Shown piece by piece: positions 3,013 through 63,090 of a stretch of DNA of 64,000 nt (positions within the stretch are counted from its first letter, which is position 1; the number at the start of each line of letters is the position of its first letter). The position numbers and the translations under genes were made by a program. The notes under the pieces are model-generated. The model was not told the DNA's origin. It saw only the letters and a list, made by a program, of their open reading frames with translations, and searched no databases. The DNA lies in the NCBI GenBank assembly GCA_023634235.1, contig JAMKCF010000002.1, positions 12,402,591 through 12,466,590 of the forward strand, given 5' to 3'. This DNA comes from Pisaster brevispinus. Taxonomy: Eukaryota > Echinodermata > Asteroidea > Forcipulatida > Asteriidae.

Positions 3013-4743
3013 TTAGAGGGCGTGGCGTATGCTCCCTTCTCTTAGGTTATCAATAGTTTCCTTTTTGACGATTCCAGCGTAAAGAGTCTCCTCCTTTTCC
3101 GAGCTGACGATTTTTGGCGATCCTCGGGAGAGATCCAAGTCGGCGTAGATAAGCCCCTCGGCGTTTCTTAGTCTGGGGTCATCTTTAGCGGCTCCGTCTC
3201 CATCACGGTCTGCTGTTTGCTCTGTTGTTTCGGACTTGGCTTCGGTCCTGGTGTTCTTTTGGGATTTGGAGAGATGGTACGGCATGACGTGGGGAGGTTC
3301 CTTCCCGGTTGGTGTTCGGCCGGGTTGGCTTCCCGCTACCGGTGCAACCTTTACATCGGGGATGGTATCCCGTTGAATCTCATCTCTTCCCGCGTCCTTA
3401 GCCGTGATTACACCACCTTTCGGCTCATCATGTTCAGCTGTTATATTAGGGCGGCCTTTATCCACAAGAGCGTACAGTGAATCAAGACGACGTGGTTTAT
3501 ACCCACAGTCAAATGGTGTAGTTTCCTCCACAGACAGGTGTATGTCCTCACACACCTGGTCGCGGTGAACGTCTACCTGTGGCTGTGAGACCAATGAGTG
3601 TGGCTCAACTGCCCCTTCCTCTTGTGCAGAACTCGTCGATGCCTTAGCGCTCTCAGAAGCAGCATGCTTGGTCGGTTGAGTTTCTGCTAACTTATTGGCG
3701 TCCGCATCTCTCCTGTCACCATCTCGAGGATCGGGACGCTGAGATCGTGTCTTGTTTCGTCCTTTGAAGACGAGACAGTAGATAAGACATACGATGAGGA
3801 GTATCAAGAAGACTGCACCCACACCCCCTCCAGCAAATAGGGCTGTGTTTCCGTTTCCCGAATGGTCGATCCCAGTGTCAGTTTCCGGTTTGGTTTGGAT
3901 TGATGGGGAATGAGGTTGTGAATCACCCTCAGTGGTTATTGTTGGAGCACGTGATCTGTCTTCGGTTGGTGATCCAGGGATAACAGAATCTTGATTAGCT
4001 GTTAAAAGATCGGAGTTATTGGTGGATTTGTCGGTTACAATTGGTTTGGTTATAATTGAGTGATCGTGAACTAGAATCAAAAAGTTGTCACTTGTTTTGA
4101 CGAGAGTAGCTCCACTGTATGCCTCACAAGTTACCTTAGACCGATTGTGTCTTTTTTTTATGTTCTTTATTTTTAGAGTGTTACTGTTTTCACCTAAAAC
4201 AATTCCATCGGATTCCGTGTCAAAATATGTTGCACTAAGTCCGTTTATTTTCCATTTATAGGTCAGACGAGCTCCATTTGCTTTACAACTAAATACAACA
4301 CTTTTCCCTGCAGTTATTTTAGGAGGGTTTGCCTTCACTGTAATGTTCAATAAAGATGGTATGAAGAGTGTCACATTTCCTAAAGTTATAACAGTGTTTT
4401 GTTGTGCTTTTGAGTGACTTATCTTACATCTGTATTTGCGAGCATCATTCTCCTCAACTTGTGTGAGAATGAGAGACCAGTTGGGACCACCGGATAATGA
4501 AAATGATTGTACAACATCATTGCGAACAGTGCCACATGAACCTATTGGTTCAAATGTTTCATTCAAACGACGTAGCCAAGAAACCTCACACTTGCCGTGT
4601 GTACACTCGTCAAAGTCAGTTGGACAAATTAGAGTCGCGTTAGTTCCCACTTCGGCCACGACATCATTCAGCTGACCCGTGAGTTCACACGCTCTGCCTC
4701 CATAAGACAACAAAGAAACCACTGCGAAAGCTACGAGGAACAT
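3013..4743 (-). CDS. G1: long-tail two-Ig receptor with ITIM/ITSM tail (class A ectodomain)
   Basis: Single-exon ORF of 576 aa, probably an inhibitory-type cell-surface receptor; the ligand is unknown. Signal peptide is residues 1-18. Ig1 spans about 19-126, with Cys at 19, 40, 47, 52, 70 and 105, Trp56 and a DARKYRC F-strand motif. Ig2 spans about 130-225 (Cys153, Trp164, Cys206). A Pro/Ser/Thr-rich stalk follows, then an uncharged membrane span at about 301-326 and a 250-residue tail. Tail tyrosines include CGYKPR (Y415), SLYALV (Y424), LIYADL (Y533, ITIM) and TLYAGI (Y555, ITSM-like). SLYALV fits the ITIM consensus here only, because G3 and G12 read PVYALV. The start is the ATG just before the hydrophobic signal peptide; A at -3 is favourable. 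A CRE lies 107 bp upstream. Family assignment is by motif; no named orthologue is recognised. Confidence 0.9.
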   Translation of the reverse strand: MFLVAFAVVSLLSYGGRACELTGQLNDVVAEVGTNATLICPTDFDECTHGKCEVSWLRRLNETFEPIGSCGTVRNDVVQSFSLSGGPNWSLILTQVEENDARKYRCKISHSKAQQNTVITLGNVTLFIPSLLNITVKANPPKITAGKSVVFSCKANGARLTYKWKINGLSATYFDTESDGIVLGENSNTLKIKNIKKRHNRSKVTCEAYSGATLVKTSDNFLILVHDHSIITKPIVTDKSTNNSDLLTANQDSVIPGSPTEDRSRAPTITTEGDSQPHSPSIQTKPETDTGIDHSGNGNTALFAGGGVGAVFLILLIVCLIYCLVFKGRNKTRSQRPDPRDGDRRDADANKLAETQPTKHAASESAKASTSSAQEEGAVEPHSLVSQPQVDVHRDQVCEDIHLSVEETTPFDCGYKPRRLDSLYALVDKGRPNITAEHDEPKGGVITAKDAGRDEIQRDTIPDVKVAPVAGSQPGRTPTGKEPPHVMPYHLSKSQKNTRTEAKSETTEQTADRDGDGAAKDDPRLRNAEGLIYADLDLSRGSPKIVSSEKEETLYAGIVKKETIDNLREGSIRHAL

Positions 4744-4849
4744 CTTTACTTTACGCTGTGTTAAACTCGTAAAAAGTGTTGAGGTTTTGTTGATTTCAGA
4801 AGTATCAAAGTGTGTTAAACTCTTTGAACACTCTCTTCATCCAACGAAG

Positions 4850-4857
4850 TGACGTCA
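4850..4857. promoter_or_regulatory. CRE/ATF palindrome upstream of G1
   Basis: Perfect TGACGTCA 107 bp upstream of the G1 ATG. A site at nearly the same distance precedes ten other genes of the array. Binding by a CREB/ATF-type bZIP factor is inferred from the consensus. Confidence 0.6.
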
Positions 4858-8338: not shown

Positions 8339-9577
8339 TTACAACACCTCTACGTAGTGGTGCATGTCATCACTCCCTCGGTCGCGCTGAGTTTTCACCT
8401 GTTTCTGTGAGTGGAATCGGTGTGGCCTGATTGACTCATTCCCTGCTGTAAAACTCGTCGATGCCTTAGCACTCTCAGAAGCAGCATGCTTGGTCGGTTG
8501 AGTTTCTGCTAACTCAACGGCACCCGCATCTCTCCGCTCACCACCTTGAGACGTGAAGCCTTCAGACTTTGTCTTGCCTCGGAAGACGAGCCAGTAGACA
8601 AGGATTGCAATGTCGAGGATCAAGAAGACGGCAGCCACACCCACTCCTATGAAGTGCACTGAGTTTCTGCTTGTAAGATGGTCGATCCCCGGGTCAGGTT
8701 CCTGTTTGGTTTGAATTGATGGGGAATGAGGTTGTGAATCATCCTCAACGGTCACTGCTGGTGGAGCACGTGATCTGTAATCTTCGGTTGATGGACCATG
8801 GGTAACAAAGTCTCGATTAGGTGTCATAAAATTCGGGTTGTTGGTAGCGATTTCTGGTACGTTTGGTTGAGTTGTGATTTCGTGATTGTGAACTCGAATC
8901 GTAAAGTTTTCACTTGTTTTGACGAATGTGTCTCCACTGTATGCAGCACAAGTTACATTGGCACCATCCTGTCCTCTTTGCATGTTCAAAATGTGTACAG
9001 TTTGTTTGTCTTTCCTGAACTCATATTTTGTGGCATTTCGAAATATCTCAATATTCAGCCGGTCCAAAAACCATTTATATGTGAAATGGGCTTCTTTCGT
9101 TTTTTGAACAAGACAAATTAAGGTACCACTTTGTCCTTCAGTTAATTGAGACGGGTTTGTCATCACTGTTATGTTAATTGCCGATGGTATAATTAGTGCC
9201 ACGCTCTCAGAAAGTATTGGTTTTACTGATGTATTTGAAAAACGAATCTTGCATTGGTATTTTTGAGCATCGTCCAGCTGAACTGCACTTATTTTTAGAG
9301 TCCAAATGGAACCACTAGATATTGAAAACCTGTTTGTAAAGTTTGTTCTAACTGTGGTACATGAAGTTATCGTTATTTGTTTACGATGGTTTATCATACG
9401 ATGCCAAACAACCTTACAATTGTCGTTCTTACACTCGCCTTTCTCAATGTTAGTTGGACACTTAAAAATCGCGTTAGTTCCCACTTCGGCCACGACATCC
9501 CTTGGCTGACCCGTGAGTTCACACGCTCTGCCTCCGTAAGACAACAAAGAAAACACTGCGACTGCTACGAGGAACAT
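8339..9577 (-). CDS. G2: short-tail two-Ig receptor with Asp in the membrane span (class C)
   Basis: Single-exon ORF of 412 aa. Signal peptide is residues 1-18. Ig1 spans about 19-128, with Cys at 19, 40, 49, 54, 73 and 109. Ig2 spans about 133-228 (Cys155, Trp169, Cys210). The stalk is Ser/Thr/Pro-rich with PHSPSIQTK. The membrane span at about 307-332 contains Asp322. The 80-residue tail ends DDMHHYVEVL and has no canonical ITIM. Its proximal tail (ELAETQPTKHAASESAKAS) is shared with the long-tail genes. In an activating-type receptor a charged span would contact a partner of opposite charge; that role is inferred. The start is the ATG at 9577; the frame stays open upstream but has no earlier ATG before the CRE. 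Confidence 0.9.
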   Translation of the reverse strand: MFLVAVAVFSLLSYGGRACELTGQPRDVVAEVGTNAIFKCPTNIEKGECKNDNCKVVWHRMINHRKQITITSCTTVRTNFTNRFSISSGSIWTLKISAVQLDDAQKYQCKIRFSNTSVKPILSESVALIIPSAINITVMTNPSQLTEGQSGTLICLVQKTKEAHFTYKWFLDRLNIEIFRNATKYEFRKDKQTVHILNMQRGQDGANVTCAAYSGDTFVKTSENFTIRVHNHEITTQPNVPEIATNNPNFMTPNRDFVTHGPSTEDYRSRAPPAVTVEDDSQPHSPSIQTKQEPDPGIDHLTSRNSVHFIGVGVAAVFLILDIAILVYWLVFRGKTKSEGFTSQGGERRDAGAVELAETQPTKHAASESAKASTSFTAGNESIRPHRFHSQKQVKTQRDRGSDDMHHYVEVL

Positions 9578-10709: not shown

Positions 10710-12349
10710 TTAGGGGGCGTGGCGGATACTCCCTTCTCTTAGGTTCCCAACAGTTTCCCTGTCGACGATTCCAGCATAAACAGTCTCCTCTTCTTCCGAG
10801 CTGACGATTCTTAGCGATCCTCGGGAGAGATCCAAGTCGGCGTAGATAAGCCCCTCAGCGTTCTTTAGTCTGGGGTCATCTTTAGCGGCTCCATCTCCAT
10901 CACGGTCTGCTGTTTGCTCTGGTGGTTCGGACTTGGCTTCGGTCTTGGGTCGGGTTCGGGATTTGGAGAGATGGTACGGCGTGACGTGGGGAGGTTTCTT
11001 CCCGGTGGGTGCTTGGCCGGGTTTGCTTCCCGCTACCGGTGCAACCTTTACATCGGGGATGGTATCCCGTTGAATCTCATCTCTTCCCGCGTCCTTAGCC
11101 GTGATTACACCACCCTTCGGTTCATCCTGTTCAGCTGCAATACTGGGGTGGTTTTTATCGACAAGAGCATACACTGGATCAAGACGACGTGGTTTATACC
11201 CACAGTCAAATGGTGGAGGTTCCTCCACAGACAGGGGTATGTCCTCACACACCTGGTCGCGGTGAACGTCTACCTGTGGCTGCGAATCCAATATGTGTGG
11301 TTCAACTGCCCCATCCTCTCGTGGAGAACTCGGCGATGCATTAGCACACTCAGAAGCAGCATGCTTGGTCGGTTGAGTTTCGGCTAACTCAACGGCATCA
11401 GCATCTCTCATGTCACCATCTTGAGGGTCGGGACGCTGAGATCGTGTCTTGTTTCGTCCTTTGAAGACGAGACAGTAGATAAGACATACGATGAGGAGTA
11501 TCAAGAAGACTACAACCACACCCCCTCCAGCAAATAGGGCTGTGTTTCCGTTTCCCGAATGGTCGATCCCGGTGTCAGTTTCCCGTTTGGTTTGGATTGA
11601 TGGTGAATGAGGTTGTGAATCACCCTCAGCGGTCATTGTTGGAGCACTTGATCTGTCTACAGTTGATGGTCCAGGGATAACAGAGTCTTGATTAGCTGTT
11701 AAAAGATCGGAGTTAATGGTGGATTTGTCGGTTACAATTGGTTGGGTTATAATTGGGTGATCGTGAACTCGAATTGTAAAATTGTCACTTGTTTTGACGA
11801 GAGTAGCTCCACTGTATGCCTCACAAGTTACCTTTGAACGATTGTGTTTTTCTTGTATGTTCTTAATTTCTAGAGTTTTACCATTTTCACCATCGGATTC
11901 CGTGTCAAAATATGTTGCACTAAGTCCGTTTAATTTCCATTTATAGGTCAGACGAGCTCCGTTTGCTTTACAACTAAATACAACACTTTTCCCTGCAGTT
12001 ATTTTAGGAGGGTTTGCCTTCACTGTAATGGTCAATAAAGATGGTATGATGAGTGCCACGTGTCCTAAAGTTATATTAGTGTTTTTTGGTGCTTTTGCGT
12101 GACCTATCTTGCACCTGTATTTGCGAGCATCATTCTCCTCAACTCCTGTGATATTGAGAGACCAGTTGGGACCAGCCAAGAAACCTCACACTTGCCGTGT
12201 GTACACTTGTCAAAGTCAGTTGAACAAGTAAAAATCGCGTTAGTTCCCACTTCGGCCACGACATCCCTTGGCTGACCCGTGAGTTCACACGCTCTGCCTC
12301 CATAAGACAACAAAGAAAACACTGCGAAAGCTACGAGCAACATCTTCAT
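10710..12349 (-). pseudogene. G3: long-tail receptor (class A), broken by an 85-bp deletion in Ig1
   Basis: The 5' part (ATG at 12349, with a second in-frame ATG at 12343) encodes the signal peptide and the first half of Ig1 as far as CEVSWL. Compared with G1, about 85 bp (4490-4574 in G1) are then missing, removing the C'-E part of Ig1 and shifting the frame, so translation ends soon after with unrelated residues. The rest of Ig1, Ig2, stalk, span and tail remain open in another frame down to 10710. That part keeps LIYADL and an ITSM-like TVYAGI. The deletion junction is at about 12174. Good conservation downstream suggests the break is recent. A restart inside Ig1 would give a protein without a signal peptide. 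Confidence 0.85.
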
Positions 12350-14212: not shown

Positions 14213-14262
14213 TACCGACAGAAAACTCAAACAACCAAACTTATTTCACAATATGTTATTAA

Positions 14263-16754: not shown

Positions 16755-16827
16755 TGGTTAAAGCCGGATTTGAACCAACGACCTCCGGATTTACATTCTG
16801 GCGCTCTACCAACTGAGCTATCAAGAG
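16755..16827 (-). tRNA. tRNA-Tyr(GUA)-like pseudogene downstream of G4
   Basis: The anticodon loop ATGTAAA keeps T33 and reads GTA, so tyrosine is the best origin. Intron-less, with an unpaired acceptor stem. Lies 293 bp past the G4 stop. Confidence 0.7.
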
Positions 16828-17119: not shown

Positions 17120-18140
17120 TTACAACACCTCTACGTAGTGGTGCATGTCATCACTCCCACGGTCGCGCTGAGTTTTCACCCGTTTCTGTGAGTGGATTCG
17201 GTGTGGCCTGATTGACTTATTCCCTGCTGTAGAACTCGTCGATGCCTTAGCACTCTCAGAAGCAGCATGCTTGGTCGGTTGAGTTTCTGCTAACTCAATG
17301 GCACCCGCATCTCTCCACTCACCACCTTGAGACGTGAGGCTTTCAGACTTTGTCTTGCCTCGGAAGACGAGCCAGTAGACAAGGATCACAATGTCGAGGA
17401 TCAAGAAGACGGCAGCCACGCCCACTCCTATGAAGTGCACTGAGTTTCTGCTTGTAAGATGGTCGATCCACGGGTCAGGTTCCTGTTTGGTTTGAAATGA
17501 TGGGGAATGAGGTTGTGAATCAACCTCAACGGTCACTGCTGGTTGTGCACGTGATCTGTAATCTTGGGTTGATGGATCAGGGATAATAGAGTTTCGAATA
17601 GTTGTTGTAAGATCGGGGTTGATGGTGGATTTGTCGGGTACGATTGGTTTAGGTAGGATTTGGCGGCTGTGAACTCGAATCATAAAGTTGTTACTTTTCT
17701 TGACTAATGTGTCTCCGCTGTACGCAGCACAAGTTACAGAAGTTCCATCCCAATTTGTTTGTATGTCTTGAACTTCTAGAGTTTTATTGTCTGTGCCAAG
17801 CTCAAAGTGCAAGGACGTCTCACCCCAATTTGTTATATCGATTCCGTTGAATTTCCATTTGTATGTCAAATGAGCTCCTTTCGCTCCTCTAGTAAAACAA
17901 CTAAAGACAACATTTTCCCCTCAGTTATTTGGGAAGGATTTGTCTCAACCGTAATGTTGATCACTGATGGAATAACGATAGTTGCGTTTTCAGAATCTAC
18001 AGTTTTTGCCGATTCCTCAGAGCGACTACTAATGCTGCATCTGTATTTGCGACGATCAGCAATTTCAACTCCGCTGATATTGAGATTCCAGTTGGAACCA
18101 CCAGATATTGAAAACCTGTCTATTAAATGATCATACACTG
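17120..18140 (-). pseudogene. G4: 5'-truncated, frameshifted short-tail receptor (class B)
   Basis: The remnant begins inside Ig1 (about residue 72 of G9 numbering, at the VYDHLIDRFSISGG region) and runs to the normal short-tail stop. Signal peptide, the first four Ig1 cysteines and the promoter are missing. At 18138-18140 (CTG) the gene joins directly to sequence normally found about 0.9-1.0 kb downstream of short-tail genes (TATATCGTTGATCACAC). A C-run at 17917-17920 has four bases where relatives have five, shifting the frame in Ig2. The 3' part is open: span with Asp, tail ending HHYVEVL. The apparent Met-initiated upstream peptide is read from the flanking repeat and is not receptor sequence. 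Confidence 0.88.
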
Positions 18141-19109
18141 TATATCGTTGATCACACAAAACATGAACACTGTCTGCGACTATTTCGTCAGCTCTACCGA
18201 TCCTGTATAATACCGTGAACACCCAACTCGAAATTGTTGTCAGTGCTGTATTTGGTTGTTATGCCAGAAAATATTGTAACTTTCTCTCTCTAGTTTAACT
18301 GTTGCTGAGAATTACACTGACCTAAGTATCGCTACTTTATTTACAAGAACATTCTAATAACACATCATTGGTTTTTCGAAGCAATCCAGCATTGAAATCC
18401 ATCAGTTCACCGCTAGAATAATTTCATTAATTTGTGATCCATGCAGATGGATCTGACTGTAAACGCTGTAACAGCCAACTTAAATGTTAAGGAATTTAAA
18501 GAAGAAAGCTTAGCATTAATAGTAATGGCAAAATAGAAAGGTGTATATACATACTTTGAGCAAAATAATTCTAAATGATTCAGTGGTTTTATTTTAAATA
18601 TCAAGTAAAAACAAACACAAGAGAAACTGACTGGGTTCGTTTTAAATAGTTTGAGATTGAACAAAGACAAATTGGTTGAAGCCGGATTTGAACCAACGAC
18701 CTCCGGATTTACGTTCTGTCGCTCTACCAACTGAGCTACCAACGTTAAAGGTATCTCTATGTTGTCAGTGTTTTTGTTCGGGTTGCCAGCCAGTCAAAAT
18801 TCATAGTTATATTTCAATCACTATTTAATAATGTTTTAGTTTTTCTGTTTTTTTTACAATTGACTATATAGAGTGTTTTGCCATCTTTATATCAACCATC
18901 TGTGCTCAAGCTCAACCCCAACTCCCTGTCAGCTTCCCGAAAACTGTTCTTTGTTCCCCTTCGCTATCTTCAGTCTACTCTTCGTTCCTTACAGTTCACT
19001 CCATAGCAACTTGTCTACATGACTGTTTCTGTTTCACAAAACTTACTTTTGTGTCTTACATACCTTTTGTCCATAAAAGCTATTATACACCGGATCGGGA
19101 TGTCTGGGT
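18141..19109. other. Spacer between G4 remnant and G5 (3' flank of G5)
   Basis: Consists of the short-tail 3' flank: the TATCGTTGATCACAC segment, the CTAGTTTAACTGTTGCT segment, the tRNA-like sequence and the region before the G5 stop. The usual 5 kb of intergenic module is absent, which is explained by the deletion that truncated G4. Confidence 0.75.
18673..18745 (-). tRNA. tRNA-Tyr-like pseudogene downstream of G5
   Basis: Same tRNA-derived sequence (GTA loop) with C33 in place of T and a changed anticodon stem (GACAG). Lies 365 bp past the G5 stop. Not expected to fold as a functional tRNA. Confidence 0.65.
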
Positions 19110-20294
19110 TTACAACACCTCTACGTAGTGGTGCATGTCATCACTCCCACGGTCGCGCTGAGTTTTCACCTGTTTCTGTGAGTGGAATCGGTGTGGCCTG
19201 ATTGACTCATTCCCTGCTGTAGAACTCGTCGATGCCTTAGCACTCTCAGAAGCAGCATGCTTGGTCGGTTGAGTTTCTGCTAACTCAACGGCACCCGCAT
19301 CTCTCCGCTCACCACCTTGAGACGTGAGGCTTTCAGACTTTGTCTTGCCTCGGAAGACGAGCCAGTAGACAAGGATCACAATGTCGAGGATCAAGAAGAC
19401 GGCAGCCACGCCCACTCCTATGAAGTGCACAGAGTTTCCGCTTCCAAGATGGTCGACCCCGGGGTCAGGTTCCTGTTTGGTTTGGATAGATGGGGAATGA
19501 GGCTGAGAATTAACCTCCTCGGTCACCAAATCTCGATTAGTTGTTATAAGATTCGGGTTGACGGTAGAGATTTCGGGTATGTTTGGTTGAGCTGTGATTC
19601 GGCGATCGTTAACTCGAATCGTGAAATTTTCACTTGTTTTGACGAGTGTGTCTCTACTGTACGCGGCACAAGTTACATTAGTGCCATCCTGTCCTCTTTG
19701 CATGCTCTGAAATTGTACAGTTTGTTTGTCTTTTCCGAGCTCAAATTCTATTGAACTTTGGAAGAACTCAATATTCAGCCCGAGCAAAAACCATTTATAT
19801 TTGAAATGGGCTCCTCTCGTCATTTGGACAAGACAACTAAAGGTACCACTTTTTCCTTCAGTTAATTGAGACTGGTTTGTCATCACTGTGATGTTGATTG
19901 TCGATGGTATAAATAGTGCCACACTCTCAGAAATTACTGGTTTTACTGATGTATTTGAAGAACGAATCTTGCATCTGTATTTTTGAGCATCGTTCATCCG
20001 AACTTTGCTGATTTTGAGAGACCACTTGTTACCGCCAGATATTGAAAACCTGTCAACGAAACCGCTAAACAACACGTTACATGAACTAATCTGTTCATAT
20101 GTGTCATTTATCAGAATATGCCAAGTAACCGCACAATTTTCGTTCTTACACTCGCCTGTCTCAATATCAGTTGGACACTTAAAAATCGCGTTAGTTCCCA
20201 CTTCGGCCACGACATCCTCTGGCTGACCCGTGAGTTCACACGCTCTGCCTCTGTATGACAACAAAGAAAACACTGCGACAGCTACGAGGAACAT
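19110..20294 (-). CDS. G5: short-tail two-Ig receptor with Asp in the span (class C, short stalk)
   Basis: Single-exon ORF of 394 aa. Signal peptide, six-Cys Ig1 with the GECKNENC spacing of class C, and Ig2 (TFSCLVQ...VTCAAYS) are followed by a stalk about 18 residues shorter than in G2: the ST(E/K)DYRSRAPP segment is missing. The span FIGVGVAAVFLILDIVILVYW has Asp304, and the tail ends DDMHHYVEVL. By eye the closest relative is G11, which shares the short stalk and nearly the same 5' flank. The ATG at 20294 is chosen because the signal peptide starts there and the CRE spacing fits; no earlier in-frame ATG is apparent. Role as a non-inhibitory paired receptor is inferred. Confidence 0.9.
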   Translation of the reverse strand: MFLVAVAVFSLLSYRGRACELTGQPEDVVAEVGTNAIFKCPTDIETGECKNENCAVTWHILINDTYEQISSCNVLFSGFVDRFSISGGNKWSLKISKVRMNDAQKYRCKIRSSNTSVKPVISESVALFIPSTINITVMTNQSQLTEGKSGTFSCLVQMTRGAHFKYKWFLLGLNIEFFQSSIEFELGKDKQTVQFQSMQRGQDGTNVTCAAYSRDTLVKTSENFTIRVNDRRITAQPNIPEISTVNPNLITTNRDLVTEEVNSQPHSPSIQTKQEPDPGVDHLGSGNSVHFIGVGVAAVFLILDIVILVYWLVFRGKTKSESLTSQGGERRDAGAVELAETQPTKHAASESAKASTSSTAGNESIRPHRFHSQKQVKTQRDRGSDDMHHYVEVL

Positions 20295-24574: not shown

Positions 24575-26116
24575 TTAGGGGGTGTGGTGGATGCTCCCTT
24601 CTCTTAGGTTACCAACAGTTTCCTTGTTGACAATTCCAGCATAAAGAGTCTCCTCCTCTTCTGAGCTGACGATTCTTGGCGATCCTCGGGAGAGATCCAA
24701 GTCGGCGTAGATAAGCCCCTCGGCGTTCCTTAGTCTGGGGTCATCTTTAGCGGCTCCGTCTCCATAAAGGTCTGCTGTTTGCTCTAGTGGTACGGATTTG
24801 GAGAGATGGTACGGCGTGACGTGGGGAGGTTTCTTCCCGGCGGGTGTCCGGCCGGGTTGGCTTCCCGCTAGCGGTGCAACCTTTACATCGGGGATGGTAT
24901 CCCGTTGAATCTCATCTCTTCCCGCGTCCTTAGCCGTGATTACACCTTCTTTCGGCTCTTCCTTCTGGGAGACTTTTGAAGATTGTTCAGCCGCGGTATG
25001 GGAGAGGCTTTTATCCACAAGACCATACACTGGATTAAGACGACGTGGTTTATACCCACAGTCAAATGGTGTTGTTTCCTCTACAGACAGGGGTATGTCC
25101 TCACACACCTGGTCGCGGTGAACGTCTACCTGTGGCTGCGAGTCCAATGGGTGCGTCTCAACTGCCCTTTCCTCTCGTGTAGAAGTCGTCGATGCACACT
25201 TAGAAGCAGCATGCTTGGTCGGTTGAGTTTCTGCTAACTCAACGGCGTCCGCATCTCTCCTGTCACCATCTCGAGGATCGGGACGTTGAGATCGTGTCTT
25301 GTGTCGTCCTCTGAAGACGAGACAGTAGATGAGACATACGATGAGGAGTATCAAGAAGACTGCACCCACACCCCCTCCAGCAAATAGGGCTGCGTTTCCG
25401 TTTCCCGATTGGTCGTTATCGGTGCTTAGGCGGTCGTAAACTTGAATCGTAAAGTTGTCGCTTGTTTTGACGAGAGTATCTCCACTGTATGCCTCACATG
25501 CTACCTGAGTGCCATGCTGTACTGTTTGTATATTCTTAAATTCTAGAGTTTTGTGGTTTTTACCAAAAACAAATTTATTGGGTTCCTTGTAAAAATTTGT
25601 TATACTAAATCCGTTCAAATTCCATTGATATTTCAAACGAGCTCCTTCCGCTGTACGAGTAATACAACTAAATACAACACTATCCCCTACAGTTATTTGA
25701 GTAGGGTTTGCGTTCACCGAGATGGTAAATATCGATGGTATAATGAGTGTCGTGTAACCATAAGTTATAATATTAGCTTTTGGTTGTGTTTTTGCGTGAC
25801 CTATCTTGCACCTGTATTTGCGAGCATCATTCTCCTCAACTCCTGTGATATTGAGAGACCAGTTGGGACCACCAGATAATGAAAGTCGTTTTACAACTTC
25901 GATGCCACATGCACCTATTGTTTGAAACGTTGCCTTCATCCGACGATGCCAAGAAACCACACACTTCTTGTGAGTGCACTCGTCAAAATCAGTTGGACAA
26001 GTAAGAATCGCGTTAGTTCCCACTTCGGCCACGACATCGTTTGGTTGACCCGTGAGTTCACACGCTCTGCCTCCATAAGACAACAAAGAAAACACTGCGA
26101 AAGCTACGAGGAACAT
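24575..26116 (-). CDS. G6: long-tail two-Ig receptor with ITIM/ITSM tail (class A, stalk deleted)
   Basis: Single-exon ORF of 513 aa. Signal peptide 1-18; Ig1 with Cys at 19, 40, 47, 52, 70 and 103; Ig2 with Cys151, Trp165 and Cys207. The stalk is only about 14 residues (RLSTDNDQSGNGNA), where relatives have about 70, so Ig2 would sit close to the membrane. Uncharged span about 243-268. Tail tyrosines: CGYKPR, PVYGLV, TPYHLS, LIYADL (Y470, ITIM) and TLYAGI (Y492, ITSM-like). The tail also carries the extra segment QSSKVSQKEEPK, comparable to one in G12. The ATG at 26116 precedes the signal peptide; a CRE lies 66 bp upstream, closer than usual, because about 40 bp of the leader are missing. 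Confidence 0.9.
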   Translation of the reverse strand: MFLVAFAVFSLLSYGGRACELTGQPNDVVAEVGTNAILTCPTDFDECTHKKCVVSWHRRMKATFQTIGACGIEVVKRLSLSGGPNWSLNITGVEENDARKYRCKIGHAKTQPKANIITYGYTTLIIPSIFTISVNANPTQITVGDSVVFSCITRTAEGARLKYQWNLNGFSITNFYKEPNKFVFGKNHKTLEFKNIQTVQHGTQVACEAYSGDTLVKTSDNFTIQVYDRLSTDNDQSGNGNAALFAGGGVGAVFLILLIVCLIYCLVFRGRHKTRSQRPDPRDGDRRDADAVELAETQPTKHAASKCASTTSTREERAVETHPLDSQPQVDVHRDQVCEDIPLSVEETTPFDCGYKPRRLNPVYGLVDKSLSHTAAEQSSKVSQKEEPKEGVITAKDAGRDEIQRDTIPDVKVAPLAGSQPGRTPAGKKPPHVTPYHLSKSVPLEQTADLYGDGAAKDDPRLRNAEGLIYADLDLSRGSPRIVSSEEEETLYAGIVNKETVGNLREGSIHHTP

Positions 26117-31676: not shown

Positions 31677-32914
31677 TTACAACACCTCTACGTAGTGGTG
31701 CATGTCATCACTCCCACGGTCGTGCTGAGTATTCACCTGTTTCTGTGAGTGGAATCGGTGTGGCCTGATTGACTCATTCCCTGCTGCTGTAGAACTCGTC
31801 GATGCCTTAGCACTCTCAGAAGCAGCATGCTTGGTCGGTTGAGTTTCTGCTAACTCAACGGCACCCGCATCTCTCCGCTCACCACCTTGAGACGTGAGGC
31901 TTTCAGACTTTGTCTTGCCTCGGAAGACGAGCCAGTAGACAAGGATTGCAATGTCGAGGATCAAGAAGACGGCAGCCACGCCCACTCCTATGAAGTGGAC
32001 TGAGTTTCCGCTTCTAAGATGGTCGATCCCCGGGTCAGATTCCTGTTTGGTTTGGATGGATGGGGAATGAGGTTGTGAATCACCCTCCATGGTCACTGCT
32101 GGTGGTGCATGTGATCTGTAATGTTCGGTTGATGGACCATGGGTAATAAAGTTTCGATAAGTTGTTATGATATCGGGGTTGATGGTGGATTGTTCGGGTA
32201 CCATTGGTTTAGACAGGATTCGGCGTTCGTGAACTCGAATCATAAAGTTTTCACTTTTCATGACTAATGTGTCTCCGCTGTATGCAGCACAAGTTACATT
32301 GATACCATCAAAATCTGTTTGTATATCTTGAACTTCTAGAGTTTTACTGTCTGCGCCAAGCTCAAAGTGAAAGGAAGCCCCACCCAGAGTGTTATATCGA
32401 TTCCGTTGAATTTCCATTTATATGTCAAATGAGCTTCTTTAGCTCCTCTAGTAAAACATTTCAAGACAACATTTTCCCCCTCAGTTATTTGGGAAGGATT
32501 TGTCTCAACCGTAATGTTGATCACTGATGGAATAACGATAGTTGCATTTTCAGAATCTTCTGTTGTAAGTGATCCATCGTAGCGTCTAATGCCGCATCTG
32601 TATTTGCGACGATCAGCAAGTTCAACTTCTCTGATAGTGAGAAACCACCAGATGGAACCACCAGATATTGAAACCTTGCCTTTGAAATTCTCATAAACTA
32701 AGGCACATGAACTAATTTGCTCATATTTGTGGTTCATCAGACGATACCACTTAACCGTACACTGTCTGTGTGTACACTTGTCAAAGTCAGTTGGACAAGT
32801 AAGAACCGCGTTAGTTCCCACTTCGGCCACGACATCCCTTGGCTGACCCGTGAGTTTACACGCTCTGCCTCCATAAGACAACAAAGAAAACACTGCGACA
32901 ACTACGAGGAACAT
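31677..32914 (-). pseudogene. G7: short-tail receptor (class B) with a 1-bp frameshift in Ig2
   Basis: 1238 bp from ATG to stop against 1239 in the intact relative G9. Signal peptide, Ig1 and the first half of Ig2 (through YKWKFNGIDIT) read in one frame; the rest of Ig2, stalk, Asp-containing span and the HHYVEVL tail read in another. One base is missing at about 32378-32385, where relatives have an extra base in the segment before CCCA. All other features are intact, so this is either a very recent pseudogene, a null allele or a sequencing error. The promoter is of the G2 type and its CRE is altered to TAACGTCA (33019-33026), 105 bp upstream, the only degenerate one in the array. As it reads, the product would be a secreted, truncated Ig protein. 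Confidence 0.8.
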
Positions 32915-40308: not shown

Positions 40309-41547
40309 TTACAACACCTCTACGTAGTGGTGCATGTCATCACTCCCACGGTCGCGCTGAGTTTTCACCTGTTTCTGCGAGTGGAATCGGTGTGGCCTGA
40401 TTGACTCATTCCCTGCTGCTGTAGAACTCGTCGATGCCTTAGCACTCTCAGAAGCAGCATGCTTGTTCGGTTGAGTTTCTGCTAATTCAACGGCACCCGC
40501 ATCTCTCCTCGTACCACCTTGAGACGTGAGGCCTTCAGACTTTGTCTTGCCTCGGAAGACGAGCCAGTAGACAAGGATTGCAATGTCGAGAATCAAGAAG
40601 ACGGCAGCCACGCCCACTCCTATGAAGTGCACTGAGTTTCCGCTTCCAAGATGGTCAATCCCCGGATCAGGTTCATGTTTGGTTTGGATTGATGGGGAAT
40701 GAGGTTGTGAATCACCCTTCATGGTCACTGCTGGTGGTGCACGTGATCTGTTATGTTCGGTTGATGAACCATGGATAATAGAGTTTCGATTAGTTATTGT
40801 AAGATCGGGGTTAATAGTGGATTTGGCGGGTACGATTGGTTTAGATGGGATTTGGCGGCTGTGAACTCGAATCATAAATTTTTCACTTTTCTTGACTAAT
40901 GTGTCTCCGCTGTACGCAGCACAAGTTACATTTGTACCATCCCGATTTGTTTGTATATTTTGAACTTCTAGAGTTTTACTGTATGTGCCAAGCTCATAGT
41001 GAAAGGAAGTCGTATCCCAATTTGTTATATCGATTCCGTTGAATTTCCATGTATGTGTCAAATGGGCTCCTTTCACTCCTCTTGTAAAACAACTAAAGAC
41101 AACATTTTCCCCCTCAGTTATTTGGGAAGGATTTGTCTCAACCGTAATGTTGATCACTGATGGAATAACGATAGTTGCGATTTCAGATGCTACATTTTTT
41201 GCCGATTCCTTAAAGCGACTACTAATCTTGCATCTGTATTTGCGACGATCAGCTAGCTCAACTCCGCCGATAGTGAGAGACCAGTTGGAACCACCAGATA
41301 TTGAAAACCTGTCTGATAAATCCTCATACACTGAGGTACATGAACTAATCAGTTCATATTTGTGGTTCATCAGACGATACCAAGAAACCGTACACTCCTC
41401 GTGTGTACACCCGCCAAAGTCAGTTGGACAAGTAAGAATCGCGTTAGTTCCCACTTCGGCCACGACATCCCTTGGCTGACCCGTGAGTTCACACGCTCTG
41501 CCTCCATAAGACAACAAAGAAAACACTGCGAAAGCTACGAGGAACAT
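40309..41547 (-). CDS. G9: short-tail two-Ig receptor with Asp in the span (class B)
   Basis: Single-exon ORF of 412 aa. Signal peptide 1-18; Ig1 with Cys at 19, 40, 47, 52, 70 and 106 and Trp56; Ig2 with Cys153, Trp167 and Cys209. Stalk about 231-303 with PHSPSIQTK. The span at about 306-331 carries Asp321, followed by a basic FRGKTK stop-transfer. The tail runs to SDDMHHYVEVL with Y408. Its ectodomain closely matches long-tail G8 and G12, so G9 is the clearest short-tail partner of a paired set. The tail has no canonical ITIM: the residue at -2 from Y408 is His. The ATG at 41547 is set by the signal peptide and by the CRE 105 bp upstream. Signalling polarity is inferred. Confidence 0.92.
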   Translation of the reverse strand: MFLVAFAVFSLLSYGGRACELTGQPRDVVAEVGTNAILTCPTDFGGCTHEECTVSWYRLMNHKYELISSCTSVYEDLSDRFSISGGSNWSLTIGGVELADRRKYRCKISSRFKESAKNVASEIATIVIPSVINITVETNPSQITEGENVVFSCFTRGVKGAHLTHTWKFNGIDITNWDTTSFHYELGTYSKTLEVQNIQTNRDGTNVTCAAYSGDTLVKKSEKFMIRVHSRQIPSKPIVPAKSTINPDLTITNRNSIIHGSSTEHNRSRAPPAVTMKGDSQPHSPSIQTKHEPDPGIDHLGSGNSVHFIGVGVAAVFLILDIAILVYWLVFRGKTKSEGLTSQGGTRRDAGAVELAETQPNKHAASESAKASTSSTAAGNESIRPHRFHSQKQVKTQRDRGSDDMHHYVEVL

Positions 41548-41651
41548 CTTCACTTGACGCTGTGTTAAACTCGTAAGAAGTTGTGAGTGTTTGTTGGCCT
41601 CAGAAATATCGAATTGTTGAACTCTTTGACCACTCGTTTCCACTATCGAAG

Positions 41652-45553: not shown

Positions 45554-45659
45554 CAGTACCGACAGGAAACTCACACAATCAAAATTCTTTCACAATATGT
45601 TATTAATTTTGTTGAGTATGCCAATCTGATTCAGATTTAGTATAATCTAGTAAACAACA

Positions 45660-48505: not shown

Positions 48506-51074
48506 TTACAATACCTCTACGTAGTGTTGCATGTCATCACTCCCACGGTCGCGCTGAGTTTTCACCTGTTTCTGTGAGTGGAATCGGTGTGGCCTGATTG
48601 ACTCATTCCCTGCTGTAGAACTCGTCGATGCCTTAGCACTCTCAGAAGCAGCATGCTTGGTCGGTTGAGTTTCTGCTAACTCAACGGCACCCGCATCTCT
48701 CCGCTCACCACCTTGAGACGTGAGGCCTTCAGACTTTGTCTTGCCTCGGAAGACGAGCCAGTAGACAAGGATTGCAATGTCGAGGATCAAGAAGACGGCA
48801 GCCACGCCCACTCCTATGAAGTGGACTGAGTTTCCGCTTAGAAGATGGTCGACCCCGGCGTCAGAATCCTGTTTGGTTTGGATCGATGGGGAATGAGGTT
48901 GCGAATCTTCCTCAAAGGTCACTGCTGGTGGTGGTGAACGTGATCTGTAATCTTTGGTTGATGGACCATGGATAACAGAATCTTGATTAGTTTTCTTAAG
49001 ATTGGGGTTTTTGGTAGAGATTGCGGGTACGTTTGGTTGAGTTTTGATTTGGCGATTGTGAACTCGAATCGTAAAGTTTCCACTTGTTTTGACGAATGTG
49101 TCTCCACTGTATGCCGCACAAGTTACATTGACACCATCCAGTCTTTTTTGCATGCTCCAAATGTGTACAGTTTGTTTGTCTTTTCTGAACTCAAATTCCA
49201 TTGAACTTCTAAATGACTCAATGTTCACCCCGTGCAATAACCATTTATACGTGAAATGGGCTCCTCTCGCCATTTGGACAAGACAACTGAAGGTACCACT
49301 TATTCCTTTAGTTAATTGAGAGTGGTTTGTCATCACTGTGATGTTGATTGCCGATGGTATTGTGACAAAAATTGCTCTTCCTGAATAATTAATTCCCAGC
49401 TATATTCCAACAGCATGAAATAATGTAGATGGTGTATTAACACAAACAACAGTTCGTCATGTGAGCTCAAGTATCTGTCAGATAATCATAAAACAGGAAC
49501 GGACAGAACTTGTTCTTTATTCATTCGATTTATTCTTTAAAACTTACCGAATTAATGTGCTATCTAAATTGTTCCCTTGAGAATTGACGATTGTAGACAA
49601 TAGACTTTGACTAAAATACTAGTGTAGTTTATAACAAACTTTAACGTAACGAGTGCATTGGTATGTGCATCATTACTTCACGTGTAAAATGGTGTTGTAT
49701 ACAAAGTCAATGGCCATAACTTCTATACACATTTCTTAATCAATATTACTGTGTATAGTTTTACATTGCAGATTGTACACGAGAGTGAGTGACCATATTT
49801 GCATAGCGTTACGCGCCGACGCGCCGTGCACTAAGGTGAAGCCAATCAGCGCGCATTGCCCTAGTTTGCGAGCCCATAAAGAGTATAAAAGGCGAGCTGC
49901 CAGTGCGTTTCGCTGCTCTGTTCGTCTCTAGGACAGGCCCTGTGGGGAGAGAGAAGCTGTGTTGCAGAAAGCCGGAGCTGAGCAGTACACTGCAGTGAAG
50001 ACCAGTGGCAGAGTATCGGAGCCTAGAAAACACTTGTGGTTGCTGAATTAAATAGAGGCAGAGTAGAATCCAGATATCCAGTTCGTTACTGGATAGCTAT
50101 AGAGCAGAGCACGCAAATAATTCCGGCATATACAATTTATTAGAGCAGCGTAGCCCCCGCAGATTTCCCAATTCATTCAATTATAGTTGCACAGTATGCA
50201 AATGCAGTCACTCAGTCTGATGAATATTAAATACCAAGTGGATTATTGTAAATATTGCTAAGTGAAGTTTTGATGAATAAATAAGCACAATTCCCCTGTT
50301 GAAGTTAAAGGAAACGTTTCAAAGGCTGATTTATATTGCTGTTTAGTTGCCTGAGAGTAGTTAAAGTAGACGCCTCGTTCCCTCCCCGACCTTTCAATAG
50401 ACTTCAAGTTCATGCCCCTCAGTCCCATATTATTATTAAAAACAGACTCCTTAGGTCAATACTCTTTTGTAGACAATAATCACCGCCATCCACCCCTCCC
50501 TCCAAACAATAGGTCCACCCTTCCCCTCCGCCCCAATCAACTCAGACGCTGTTAAGTGTTAGCAGAGCATGCAGAGACATCGTCAGTTTGGTGGAGTGAA
50601 TCTGGTGTGAAGTCCGCCCTCTATTGACGCCCGCTAGCATCACTCGACATAAGTATAACGGAGCGGTGTAGCAGCCCGTTACAGTATAATCAGTGCCACG
50701 CTCTCAGAAAGTATTGGTTTTACGGATGTATTTGAAAAACGAATCTTGCATCTGTAATTTTGAGCATCGTTCAGCTGAACTGCACTAATATTTAGAGTCC
50801 AAATGGAACCACTAGATATTGAAAACCTGTCACTTAAAAGTGTTAACACTGTGGTACATGAAGTAATGGTTACTTGTTTACGATGGTTTATCATACGATG
50901 CCAAGTAACCTTACAATTGTCGTTCTTACACTCGCCTTCCTCAATGTTAGTTGGACAGTTAAAAATCGCGTTAGTTCCCACTTCGGCCACGACATCGTTT
51001 GGTTGACCCGTGAGTTCACACGCTCTGCCTCCATAAGACAACAAAGAAAACACTGCGACAGCTACGAGGAACAT
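48506..51074 (-). pseudogene. G10: short-tail receptor (class C) interrupted by a solo LTR
   Basis: The 5' part (ATG at 51074) encodes signal peptide and complete Ig1 with six Cys up to ESVALII. At that point a 1323-bp LTR is inserted (49361-50683), and translation would stop two codons later (Leu then TAA). After the LTR, receptor sequence resumes at 49360 with the linker, Ig2, full stalk, Asp-containing span and the tail ending DDMQHYVEVL at 48506. Apart from the LTR and its 4-bp duplication (GTAT) no disabling change is obvious, so the insertion is probably the inactivating event. It would leave at best a soluble single-Ig protein. Splicing out of the LTR cannot be excluded from sequence. 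A CRE remains 107 bp upstream. Confidence 0.9.
49361..50683 (+). mobile_element. Solo LTR, 1323 bp, inside G10
   Basis: Begins TGTGACAAAA and ends CCCGTTACA, an imperfect TGTRAC...GTTACA terminal pair. GTAT is duplicated at 49357-49360 and 50684-50687; intact relatives read GGTATAAT across the site. A TATA box (TATAAAA, 49884-49890) and AATAAA (50276-50281) fit a U3-R-U5 order on the plus strand, antisense to G10. Ty3/gypsy-type ends are suggested, but with no internal region the family cannot be set. Confidence 0.88.
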
Positions 51075-55327: not shown

Positions 55328-55400
55328 TGGTTAAAGCCGGATTTGAACCAACGACCTCCGGATTTACGTACTGGCGCTCTACCAACTGAGCTATCAACGT
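55328..55400 (-). tRNA. tRNA-Tyr-like pseudogene downstream of G11
   Basis: Same tRNA-derived sequence with a GTA loop; 284 bp past the G11 stop, the shortest spacing in the set. Confidence 0.7.
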
Positions 55401-55683: not shown

Positions 55684-56868
55684 TTACAACAACTCTACGT
55701 AGTGGTGTATGTCATCACTCCTACGGTCGCGCTGAGTTTTCACCTGTTTCTGTGAGTGGAATCGGTGTGGCCTGATTGACTCATTCCCTGCTGTAGAACT
55801 CGTCGATGCCTTAGCACTCTCAGAAGCAGCATGCTTGGTCGGTTGAGTTTCTGCTAACTCAACGGCACCCGCATGTCTCCGCTCACCACCTTGAGACGTG
55901 AGGCTTTCAGACTTTGTCTTACCTCGGAAGACGAGCCAGTAGACAAGGATCACACGGTCGAGGATCAAGAAGACGGCAGCCACGCCCACTCCTATGAAGT
56001 GGACTGAGTTTCCGCTTCCAAGATGGTCAATCTCGGGGTCAGGTTCCTGTTTGGTTTGGATAGATGGGGAATGAGGCTGAGAATTATCCTCCTCCGTCAC
56101 CAAATCTCGATTAGTTGTTATAAGATTTGGGTTGATGGTAGAGATTTCGGGAATATTTGGTTGAGTTGTAATTTGACGTTCGTTAACTCGAATCATAAAG
56201 TTTTTACTTGTTTTGACGAGTGTGTCTCCAATGTACGCTGCACAAGTTACATTAGTGCCATCCTGTCCTGGTCGCATGTTCCGAATTTGTACAGTTTGTG
56301 TGTCTTTTCCGAACTCAAATTCTATGGCACCTTTGAATAACTCAATATTCAGCCCGAGCAATAACCATTTATATTTGAAATGGGCTCCTCTCGCCATTTG
56401 GACAAGACAAATAAAGGTACCACTTTTTCCTTCAGTTATTTGAGACTGGTTTGTCATCACTGTGATGTTGATTGCCGAAGGTATAATCAGTGCCACACTC
56501 TCAGAAATTACTGGTTTTACTGATGTATTTGAAGAACGAATCTTGCATCTGTATTTTTGAGCATCGTTCATCCGAACTCTGCTGATTTTGAGAGACCACT
56601 TGTTACCGCCAGATATTGAAAACCTGTCAACGAAACCGCTAAACAACACGTTACATGAACTAATCTGTTCATATGTGTCATTCATCAGAATATGCCAAGT
56701 AACCGTACAATTTTCGTTCTTACACTCGCCTGTCTCAATATCAGTTGGACAAGTAAGAGTCGCGTTAGTTCCCACTTCGGCCACGACATCGTTTGGTTGA
56801 CCCGTGAGTTCACACGCTCTGCCTCCATAAGACAACAAAGAAAACACTGCGACAGCTACGAGGAACAT
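55684..56868 (-). CDS. G11: short-tail two-Ig receptor with Asp-Arg in the span (class C, short stalk)
   Basis: Single-exon ORF of 394 aa, the closest relative of G5. Signal peptide 1-18; class C Ig1 with six Cys and the GECKNENC spacing; Ig2 (FICLVQ...VTCAAYI). The stalk is short, with the same missing segment as in G5. The span reads FLILDRVILVYW, so Asp304 is followed by Arg305, where all other short-tail genes have a hydrophobic residue. The tail ends DDIHHYVELL and also shows R-for-G and V-to-L changes at its end. An acid-base pair within the span could neutralise the Asp or change partner choice (inference). The ATG at 56868 is set by the signal peptide and the CRE 105 bp upstream. Confidence 0.9.
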   Translation of the reverse strand: MFLVAVAVFSLLSYGGRACELTGQPNDVVAEVGTNATLTCPTDIETGECKNENCTVTWHILMNDTYEQISSCNVLFSGFVDRFSISGGNKWSLKISRVRMNDAQKYRCKIRSSNTSVKPVISESVALIIPSAINITVMTNQSQITEGKSGTFICLVQMARGAHFKYKWLLLGLNIELFKGAIEFEFGKDTQTVQIRNMRPGQDGTNVTCAAYIGDTLVKTSKNFMIRVNERQITTQPNIPEISTINPNLITTNRDLVTEEDNSQPHSPSIQTKQEPDPEIDHLGSGNSVHFIGVGVAAVFLILDRVILVYWLVFRGKTKSESLTSQGGERRHAGAVELAETQPTKHAASESAKASTSSTAGNESIRPHRFHSQKQVKTQRDRRSDDIHHYVELL

Positions 56869-60740: not shown

Positions 60741-61329
60741 GAGTATAAGTAAATAGCTTTAAATATAGCTGCAATTTTACTGATTAAAGGCAAAGTATAC
60801 ATTTGGTTTTTGGAACCGTGCACATGTTTCCTTTCTTTATAAATGAAGATTTAAACAATAAATCTAACCTGTGTATATTTAACTTCAAAAAGTGGTAGCG
60901 TTTTTGTGCCATCGCCTTAAATCTGGAGAGATTAAGTCCACGCAGGAAGAATAACCCGTAACTGGAATACACAATCTGAGAAACACTTCAAGCAGAAACG
61001 TTTCTCAGTTTACTTTTGTTTAATCTCTCTCTCTCTCAAACCACATTCCTTAGAAAGGAATCGTTTCTCATAATGTTATACACCATCAATAGCTGCAGTG
61101 CTTTTTATACCAAGTAAGTTTTTACGGCCATTAATTCTTCGAGTAATTACCAAAGGTTTATCCTCCCTTTACAAAAATATTGATTAACAACTTTACGTCT
61201 CGGATATTGCTTGATACAAAGTAAGTAAACTATTAACAACCATTTGTTAACAGGTTTATGCATAAAACTTTACAAAAATATACTGACTGTGACTGAGCAA
61301 AGGCTGTTCTGTTAGACACTCTCGTCTTC

Positions 61330-63090
61330 TTAGGGGGCGTGGCGGATACTCCCTTCTCTTAGGTTACCAACAGTTTCCTTGTTGACGATTCCAGCATAAA
61401 GAGTCTCCTCCTCTTCCAAGCTGACGAATCTTGGCGATCCTCGGGAGAGATCCAAGTCGGCGTAGATAAGCCCCTCAGCGTTCCTTAGTCTGGGGTCATC
61501 TTTAGCGGCTCCGTCTCCATCACGATCTGCTGTTTGCTCTGGTGGTTCGGACTTGGTTTCGGTCCTGGTGTGCTTTCGGGATTTGGAGAGATGGTACGGC
61601 GTGACGTGGGGAGGTTTCTTCCCGGTGGGTGTTTGGCCGGGTTTGCTTCCCGCTACCGGTGCAACCTTTACATCGGGGATGGTATCCCGTTGAATCTCAT
61701 CTCTTACCGCGTCCTTAGCTGTCATTACACTACCTATTGGTTCATCCTGCCGGAAGACTTTTGAAGATTGTTCAGCTGTGGTATTGGGGCGGCTTTTATC
61801 CACAAGAGCATACACTGGATCAAGACGACGTGGTTTATACCCACAGTCAAATGGTGTAGTTTCCTCCACAGACAGGGGTATGTCCTCACACACCTGGTCG
61901 CGGTGAACGTCTACCTGTGGCTGCGAGTCCAATGAGAGTGGCTCAACTGCCCCTTCCATTTGTGTAGAACTTGTCGATGCCTTAGCACTGTCAGAGGCAG
62001 CATGCTTGGTCGGTTGAGTTTCTGCTAACTCAACGGCATCCACATCTCTCCTGTCACTATATTGAGGGTCGGGACGCTGAGATCGTGTCTTGTTCCGTCC
62101 TTTGAAGACGAGACAGTAGATAAGACATACGATGAGGAGTATCAAGAAGACTGCACCCACACCCCCTCCAGCAAATAGGGTTGTGTTTCCGTTCACTGGA
62201 TGGTCTTTCCCGGTTTTAGGTCCCTGTTTGGTTTGGATGGATGGGGAGTGAGGTTGTGAATCACCCCCAAAGGTCACTGATGGACCACTTGATCTGTCTT
62301 CGGTTGATGGTCTGGGGACAACAGAATCTCGATTAGTTGTTATAAGATCGGGGTTGACTGTGGATTTTTCGGGTACGATTGGTTTTGGTAGAATTTGGCG
62401 GCCGTTAACTCGAATCATAAAGTTTTCACTTTTCTTGACCAATGTGTCTCCGCTATACGTAGCACAAGTTACAGAAGCATCATTCAAACTTGTTTGTATA
62501 TCATGAACTTCTAGAGTTTTACTGTCTGCGCCAAGCTCAAATTGCAAGGAATTTCTATTCCAATGTGTTATATCCATTCCGTTGACTATCCATTCATATG
62601 TCAAATTAGCTCTTTTTGCTCCTCTAGTAAAACAATTAAAGACAACATTTTCCCCCTCAGTTATTTGGGAAGGATTTGTTTCAACCGTAATGTTGATCAC
62701 TGATGGTATAACGATTGTTGCGTTTTCAGAATCTACAATTTTTGCCGATTCCTGAGAGCGACTACTAATCTTGCATCTGTATTTGCGACTATCAGCAAGT
62801 TCAACTCCTCTGATAGTGAGAGACCAGTTGGAACCAAGAGATATTGAAAACCTGTCCATTAAATTCTCATACACTGAGGCACATGAACTAATCAGTTCAT
62901 ATGTGTGGTTAACCAGACGATACCAAGAAACCGTACACTGCTCATGTGTACACCCGCCAACATCAGTTGGACAAGTAAGAATCGCGTTAGTTCCCACTTC
63001 GGCCACGACATCCCTTGGTTGACCCGTGAGTTTACACGCTCTGCCTCCATAAGACAACAAAGAAAACACTGCGACAGCTACGAGGAACAT
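61330..63090 (-). CDS. G12: long-tail two-Ig receptor with ITIM/ITSM tail (class B)
   Basis: Single-exon ORF of 586 aa, the longest in the array. Signal peptide 1-18; Ig1 with Cys at 19, 40, 47, 52, 70 and 106 and Trp56; Ig2 with Cys153, Trp167 and Cys209. Stalk about 231-303; uncharged span 305-328. Tail tyrosines: CGYKPR (Y418), PVYALV (Y427), TPYHLS (Y499), LIYADL (Y543, ITIM, 61453-61470) and TLYAGI (Y565, ITSM-like, 61387-61404). The two C-terminal motifs are 22 residues apart, suiting two SH2 domains of one phosphatase (inference from the ITIM/ITSM paradigm). The ectodomain is that of G8 and short-tail G9. The ATG at 63090 is set by the signal peptide; the CRE is 105 bp upstream. Confidence 0.92.
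   Translation of the reverse strand: MFLVAVAVFSLLSYGGRACKLTGQPRDVVAEVGTNAILTCPTDVGGCTHEQCTVSWYRLVNHTYELISSCASVYENLMDRFSISLGSNWSLTIRGVELADSRKYRCKISSRSQESAKIVDSENATIVIPSVINITVETNPSQITEGENVVFNCFTRGAKRANLTYEWIVNGMDITHWNRNSLQFELGADSKTLEVHDIQTSLNDASVTCATYSGDTLVKKSENFMIRVNGRQILPKPIVPEKSTVNPDLITTNRDSVVPRPSTEDRSSGPSVTFGGDSQPHSPSIQTKQGPKTGKDHPVNGNTTLFAGGGVGAVFLILLIVCLIYCLVFKGRNKTRSQRPDPQYSDRRDVDAVELAETQPTKHAASDSAKASTSSTQMEGAVEPLSLDSQPQVDVHRDQVCEDIPLSVEETTPFDCGYKPRRLDPVYALVDKSRPNTTAEQSSKVFRQDEPIGSVMTAKDAVRDEIQRDTIPDVKVAPVAGSKPGQTPTGKKPPHVTPYHLSKSRKHTRTETKSEPPEQTADRDGDGAAKDDPRLRNAEGLIYADLDLSRGSPRFVSLEEEETLYAGIVNKETVGNLREGSIRHAP

Follow-up and report, generated by a model that had tools for sequence, protein, structure and literature searches.

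A tandem array of putative paired-type immunoglobulin receptor genes with long and short tails in a sea star

Could an invertebrate carry a cluster of paired-type immunoglobulin (Ig) receptors, in which related ectodomains are mounted on tails of two opposite kinds? This question is raised by a stretch of 64,000 nucleotides of Pisaster brevispinus DNA (contig JAMKCF010000002.1; hereafter the window), in which an earlier reading of the letters alone, the original prediction, had proposed 12 homologous receptor genes on one strand. We recovered these 12 copies by tblastn (genes A to L, Table 1). All lie on the minus strand, within about 60 kb, and the two ends of the array are exactly those proposed: its last stop is at position 3013 and its first ATG at 63090. 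Five copies are long-tailed and seven are short-tailed. The array is probably an invertebrate cluster of paired-type Ig receptors, a reading drawn from sequence to which we give a probability of about 0.6. That the DNA looks like that of an invertebrate, as had also been proposed, is supported by its ratio of observed to expected CpG (0.83-0.85; 0.83 in genes and 0.84 between genes). Vertebrate genomes are strongly CpG-depleted, and the CpG level of the window, together with one-exon coding, fits an invertebrate host.

Tails and membrane spans of the two classes

The product of an intact gene is predicted to be a type I membrane protein with a signal peptide, a V-type Ig domain (Ig1), a second Ig domain (Ig2), a stalk rich in Thr, Pro and Ser, a single membrane span, and a cytoplasmic tail. 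The tail continues for 240-252 residues after the span in the five long genes and for 75-76 in the seven short ones, and our recount of the classes and their motifs agrees with the original prediction. All five long tails carry, unchanged, the immunoreceptor tyrosine-based inhibitory motif (ITIM) LIYADL. They also carry an immunoreceptor tyrosine-based switch motif (ITSM), which reads TLYAGI in four copies and TVYAGI in one, and the tyrosines of the two motifs are always 22 residues apart. When each long tail was shuffled 20,000 times, an ITIM followed 15-35 residues later by an ITSM arose in a fraction of 0.0003-0.00065, and the pair is therefore beyond chance. In the alignment of the five long tails, 159 of the 256 columns are invariant. 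None of the seven short tails matches the patterns of the ITIM, the ITSM or the immunoreceptor tyrosine-based activation motif (ITAM). Their single tyrosine stands at the extreme C-terminus, within HYVEVL in six copies and HYVELL in gene B.

The classes also differ inside the membrane. At a mid-span position, all short genes have GAC (Asp) where all long genes have CTC (Leu), a difference of two bases. This site is one of about 12 span differences between the classes (62-69% amino acid identity over 32 residues), and it is the one that brings a charge into the membrane. The short spans read FLILD[IR][AV]ILVYW (VFLILDIAILVYW), with an Arg adjoining the Asp in gene B only. Apart from the span, which scores 2.4-3.5 on a 19-residue scale, no segment of the proteins is strongly hydrophobic; windows elsewhere are weak (<1.75), including some of 1.67-1.72 near the junction of Ig1 and Ig2 in B, J, K, and L. 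At the N-terminus, four of the eight intact copies have a first 19-residue window that exceeds a hydropathy of 1.6, and the signal peptide, judged by hydropathy, is putative. Within 15 residues of the span there are 2-5 Lys or Arg after it and 1-3 before it. The former outnumber the latter in 12 of 12 copies, which predicts an intracellular tail.

If these are paired receptors, the long-tailed members would be inhibitory: upon ligand binding, a Src-type kinase would phosphorylate LIYADL and T[LV]YAGI, and the two phosphorylated motifs would jointly bind both SH2 domains of an SHP-type phosphatase. The short-tailed members, having lost the ITIM and the ITSM, would be activating or adaptor-coupled partners, which may pair with another subunit through the span Asp, dock an SH2 protein on the terminal tyrosine, or both. 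A frameshifting indel in the tail of a long form would have given rise to the short form, and recombination in the stalk would then have spread similar ectodomains over both tails. The same ligands would thereby be read with opposite sign. The sequence itself shows the anatomy, the motifs, the Asp/Leu split, the mosaics described below, and the position of the short stop; that the tails are phosphorylated and recruit a phosphatase, and what the adaptor, the ligand, the cell type, and the sign of signalling are, we infer.

Mosaic genes and the origin of the short tail

In the tree built from the DNA of Ig1 and Ig2, the 12 copies fall into three groups (A, D, E, F, and I; G, J, and L; B, C, H, and K), the first of which mixes two long with three short genes. 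Constraining the long genes to a single group on this tree is rejected by the approximately unbiased (AU) test (p = 0.00024; 0.0037 with Ig2 alone). In the tree of the span and shared tail, long and short genes separate at 100/100, and the first ectodomain group, which had been named for the test after the alignment was inspected, is rejected (AU p = 3.7e-56). Identities in 80-base windows along the genes vary accordingly with the partner compared. Between long gene A and short gene D, identity is 80-97% over the signal and Ig region, falls to 69-84% along the stalk, and stands at 64-76% from the span through the tail, bar one stretch at 91%; their amino acid identity is 85% in Ig1 and 71% in Ig2. 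Against long gene L, gene A reaches 84-90% in the signal and the first residues, 57-76% over the remaining Ig region, and 89-99% from the span onwards. These mosaics are most simply explained by recombination or conversion within the stalk, where a switch places similar ectodomains on opposite tails.

The tails of the two classes are homologous over their first ~70 residues (48-54% amino acid identity between classes), and the stop of the short genes lies at a net 20-base gap relative to the long tail in the alignments of D, F, and K. Over the 55 bases past this stop, an anchored test gave the colinear stretch of the long tail as the best or tied best match in all seven short copies (p 0.0005-0.039). 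The test uses first-order shuffles, its offsets of 20, 40, and 60 overlap, C and I tie between 20 and 40, and the seven copies, being related, do not amount to seven separate tests. A remnant of the ITIM far behind the short stop was considered and is unsupported: the colinear similarity is limited to the first ~55 nucleotides and to the anchored test. The short forms thus probably go back to long ones whose tail suffered a frameshifting indel. We infer the direction: going from long to short is simpler because the opposite path would require ~160-180 codons of open frame, with both motifs, to be at hand already. For KIR2DS2, too, descent from a long form and a relic past a stop codon have been described (PMC3533184). 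In our reading, the Asp/Leu split, the mosaic genes, and the similarity past the stop, all absent from the original prediction, strengthen the case for paired receptors.

Gene copies and their surroundings

The individual copies are given in Table 1. In the window, four long genes have a neighbour downstream, and in all four cases it is a short gene (A-B, E-F, G-H, and J-K). The E-F and J-K spacers (1118 and 1120 bp) are 86.5% identical, and the A-B and G-H spacers (4449 and 4268 bp) are 89-95% identical; a long-short pair was thus copied as one unit. In keeping with the proposed single-exon genes, the coding frame is uninterrupted from ATG to stop in the eight intact copies (A, E, G, and L among the long genes; B, D, H, and K among the short ones); C, F, I, and J are broken. 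The design of signal, two Ig domains, and stalk is common to the copies with the exception of G, which retains 15 of 74 stalk residues, and I, which lacks the signal and the start of Ig1.

Table 1. Coordinates of the genes of the array and of one insertion, in window positions (ectodomain groups from the tree of Ig1 and Ig2)
Feature	Tail class	Coordinates	Strand	State	Remarks
Gene A	long	61330..63090	-	586 aa, intact	LIYADL (ITIM) and TLYAGI (ITSM); group I
Gene B	short	55684..56868	-	394 aa, intact	span Asp then Arg; C-terminal YVELL; group III
Gene C	short	48506..51074	-	split by insertion	group III
Insertion in gene C		49358..50684 (limits approximate)	-	~1.3 kb, solo-LTR-like (long terminal repeat)	ends TG...CA, ATAC flanking both sides
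Gene D	short	40309..41547	-	412 aa, intact	group I; 85% Ig1 identity with long gene A
Gene E	long	34042..35781	-	579 aa, intact	group I
Gene F	short	31677..32914	-	frameshift in Ig2	group I; 1.1 kb downstream of long E
Gene G	long	24575..26116	-	513 aa, intact, most of stalk gone	group II
Gene H	short	19110..20294	-	394 aa, intact	group III
Gene I	short	17120..18141	-	without signal and Ig1 start, frameshifted	group I
Gene J	long	10710..12343	-	Ig1 deletion (~30 codons) breaks frame	tail open, with LIYADL and TVYAGI; group II
Gene K	short	8339..9577	-	412 aa, intact	group III; 1.1 kb downstream of long J
Gene L	long	3013..4743	-	576 aa, intact	LIYADL, TLYAGI and a further ITIM match, SLYALV; group II

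The Ig domains of the original prediction were recovered with hidden Markov models. Pfam Ig_3 scores above the gathering threshold in all seven proteins of a first set and in three of six further proteins or pieces; among these pieces, the 5' part of C passes V-set while its 3' part does not reach the cut-off, and nothing matches the piece of I at 0.01. The Pfam scan of seven proteins, with E values up to 1, shows two Ig domains only and no sushi family. Gene A, the one protein compared with PDB sequences using phmmer, has weak and generic Ig matches (best E 6e-4), the top rows being mostly antibodies. Fold searches, for which the Ig1 model alone was used (AlphaFold, predicted local distance difference test (pLDDT) about 72-83), list V-type domains; the two AlphaFold models have no usable Ig2 (pLDDT about 20-37).

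The short genes are followed by repeats. There are tRNA-like stretches on the minus strand at 16762-16821, 18673-18740, 31253-31324, 39899-39958, and 55328-55399 (Rfam tRNA, 33-44 bits), where ARAGORN found no tRNA. They lie ~285-440 bases behind five short genes, and alignment reveals such a stretch behind all seven, so the short gene was duplicated together with a tRNA-derived element. A ~690-bp tandem duplication, whose halves are 78-81% identical across copies, occurs behind C, D, and F, about 570-1930 bases past the stop; its unit appears single behind I and K. Many spacers contain a dispersed repeat, with a frame reading roughly ...GPRFWWVFVESPVRGRLDTDGELFWASYFH... (minus strand, about 15690-15985, 37840-38090, 45640-46270, and 54160-54410). 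Finally, TTTAACACAG stands just upstream of the ATG (e.g., 41548-41577), exactly before B, D, E, H, and L; the remaining six of the 11 copies compared have a close form of it. It could be the splice acceptor of a 5' untranslated exon.

Known receptor systems and alternative readings

The original prediction had likened the array to vertebrate paired receptors. The likeness stands for the shared Ig ectodomains, the opposition of ITIM/ITSM tails to short tails, the single cluster, and the swapping of tails between genes; it fails for the charge of the span. Out of five tested sequence features of paired receptors (PMC3533184), four are found here (related ectodomains across classes, long tails with ITIM, short tails, and one small cluster). 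The fifth, a basic Lys or Arg in the span, is replaced by an Asp, of opposite charge. As in KIR, LILR, PIR, PILR, SIRP, and CD300, a tandem cluster has Ig ectodomains shared between long tails with ITIM and short tails, charge is confined to the spans of the short class, and the short form apparently derives from a long one that lost its tail. The coding of the array in one exon and its CpG content are nonetheless unlike those of vertebrate paired Ig receptors. The genes of the latter are split by domain into exons, and many of their short partners have tails shorter than 75-76 residues.

Other families resemble the array in part. Classical activating Fc receptors (FcRs) also have an acidic residue, or Asn, in the span, within the motif (M/L)Fxx(D/N)TxL (PMC2413239), but the short spans (VFLILDIAILVYW), compared by eye, do not fit it. 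The Xenopus FcR-like family (XFL) similarly intermingles genes of a charged type with little or no tail and of an uncharged type with tyrosine motifs; yet XFL is a vertebrate family, its charged type has a basic NxxR, and its long tails are on exons separate from that of the span (PMC2413239). Among invertebrates, the clusters of Botryllus FcoR and Hydractinia Alr are reported to have an ITIM in some members and a hemITAM or a core YxxI/L/V in others (PMC12065747). FcoR differs in its additional sushi and C2 domains and in switching motifs by alternative splicing, and the compared text of PMC12065747 mentions neither a short class with charged span nor one-exon genes for FcoR and Alr. CgIgIT2, an Ig superfamily receptor of the oyster, is reported to combine five Ig domains with an ITAM (PMC11999971). 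Protein searches, one from gene L by itself and one from the eight intact proteins aligned, found nothing at E 0.001 among the 7,995 candidates scored in each. Viral and prokaryotic contig collections gave none either, which says little on rarity in animals. Among the literature matches listed (titles and abstracts, with few subscription papers covered), there was no invertebrate array of ITIM-bearing long and charged-span short receptors and no one-exon ITIM receptor. We would call the array a set outside the named vertebrate families that may work like one of them, rather than a member of any.

Selection was assessed with the ratio of non-synonymous to synonymous rates (dN/dS), as the mean NG86 value over pairs of intact copies with dS > 0. 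It is 0.83 in Ig1, 0.59 in Ig2, 0.60 in the stalk, and 0.40 in the span; the value of the shared tail, 1.19, is pushed up by pairs between classes (1.0-1.7). Several observations, in addition to the reversed span charge, tell against a functional system of paired receptors that arose by tail loss. Ig1 evolves fast and the long tail is weakly constrained (0.69, six pairs). Positive selection on the binding loops was considered and not retained, as loops and framework have similar values (0.81 and 0.80) with overlapping bootstrap ranges. Four of the 12 copies are broken, and no adaptor gene was noticed within the window. Past the short stop, nhmmer gives 0.7-1.5 bits in four of seven copies while shuffles reach 2.1 bits; the local alignment score is under the 95% shuffle level in six of seven, a second local alignment run is below the best shuffle in six of seven, and neither the eye, local alignment, nor nhmmer finds a remnant of the ITIM region.

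We weighed these data under other explanations as well. The short forms might be decoys or dampers that bind the same ligand, with the Asp merely lowering surface stability or driving pairing with a long partner. The lack of ITAM and ITIM in all seven short tails would suit such a role, as would an acidic residue in place of the basic one that known activating partners carry (PMC3533184). We still judge it unlikely because the four intact short copies are far more alike in the span (94-100% amino acid identity) and tail (92-96%) than in Ig1 (53-93%), the span dN/dS among them is 0-0.23 in six pairs, and the terminal YVE[VL]L, needless for a pure decoy, is kept in all seven short genes. The signal peptide is about as well conserved (89-100%), and recent conversion of the tail could also explain the likeness. 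Less likely still is an allorecognition or adhesion family like Alr or FcoR, where the ligand would be self and the split of tails would set fusion against rejection: this keeps the paired logic for a job other than defence. FcoR is composed of a V-Ig, a sushi, and two C2-Ig domains (PMC12065747), against two Ig domains without a Pfam sushi here, and since no sequence relative was found, there is no tie to either family.

Two further explanations seem improbable to us. In one, the one-exon frames would be incomplete, and 3' splicing would add or swap tails, so that the classes would be isoform exons. The possible acceptor before the ATG leaves room for a 5' untranslated exon, and frames behind C, D, F, and I contain TFYFAI, which fits a loose ITSM pattern. 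However, eight copies are open from ATG to stop, and the TFYFAI frames sit in the tRNA-derived repeat, with PFYFAI in its place behind H and no TFYFAI among the frames listed behind B and K. Apart from these cases, forward frames of at least 30 residues include no tyrosine-bearing frame common to all seven short 3' flanks. A distal ITIM exon, which the original prediction had named as the finding that would speak against it, has no clear sequence support up to 3 kb behind the short genes (~0.7 kb for H). We find it harder still to believe that this is a decaying tandem array without present function. The broken copies and the dN/dS of the Ig domains (0.59-0.83) and long tail go in that direction, against the eight full-length frames, the five open long tails with both motifs, and a conserved span specific to each class. 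A cluster of paired-type receptors remains the explanation that we favour.

Whether such a cluster arose on its own or is ancient, the two origins that the original prediction allowed for, is a more tentative matter. An invertebrate lineage may have invented paired receptors independently from one-exon genes, with a frameshift truncating the tail, tail swapping in the stalk, and a reversed polarity of the span; we find this possible, if somewhat doubtful. If true, an acidic receptor would need a basic or self-pairing adaptor as yet undescribed, and the reversed charge of the span directly predicts the nature of this missing partner subunit. If the favoured reading is right, an invertebrate would have assembled paired activating and inhibitory recognition, familiar above all from the natural killer and myeloid cells of vertebrates, along the same path: genes were duplicated in tandem, the ITIM tail was lost, the span gained a charged residue, and recombination in the stalk exchanged the tails. 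With 12 copies in 60 kb, the array would offer, in compact form, a natural experiment that shows an inhibitory receptor turning into its opposite.

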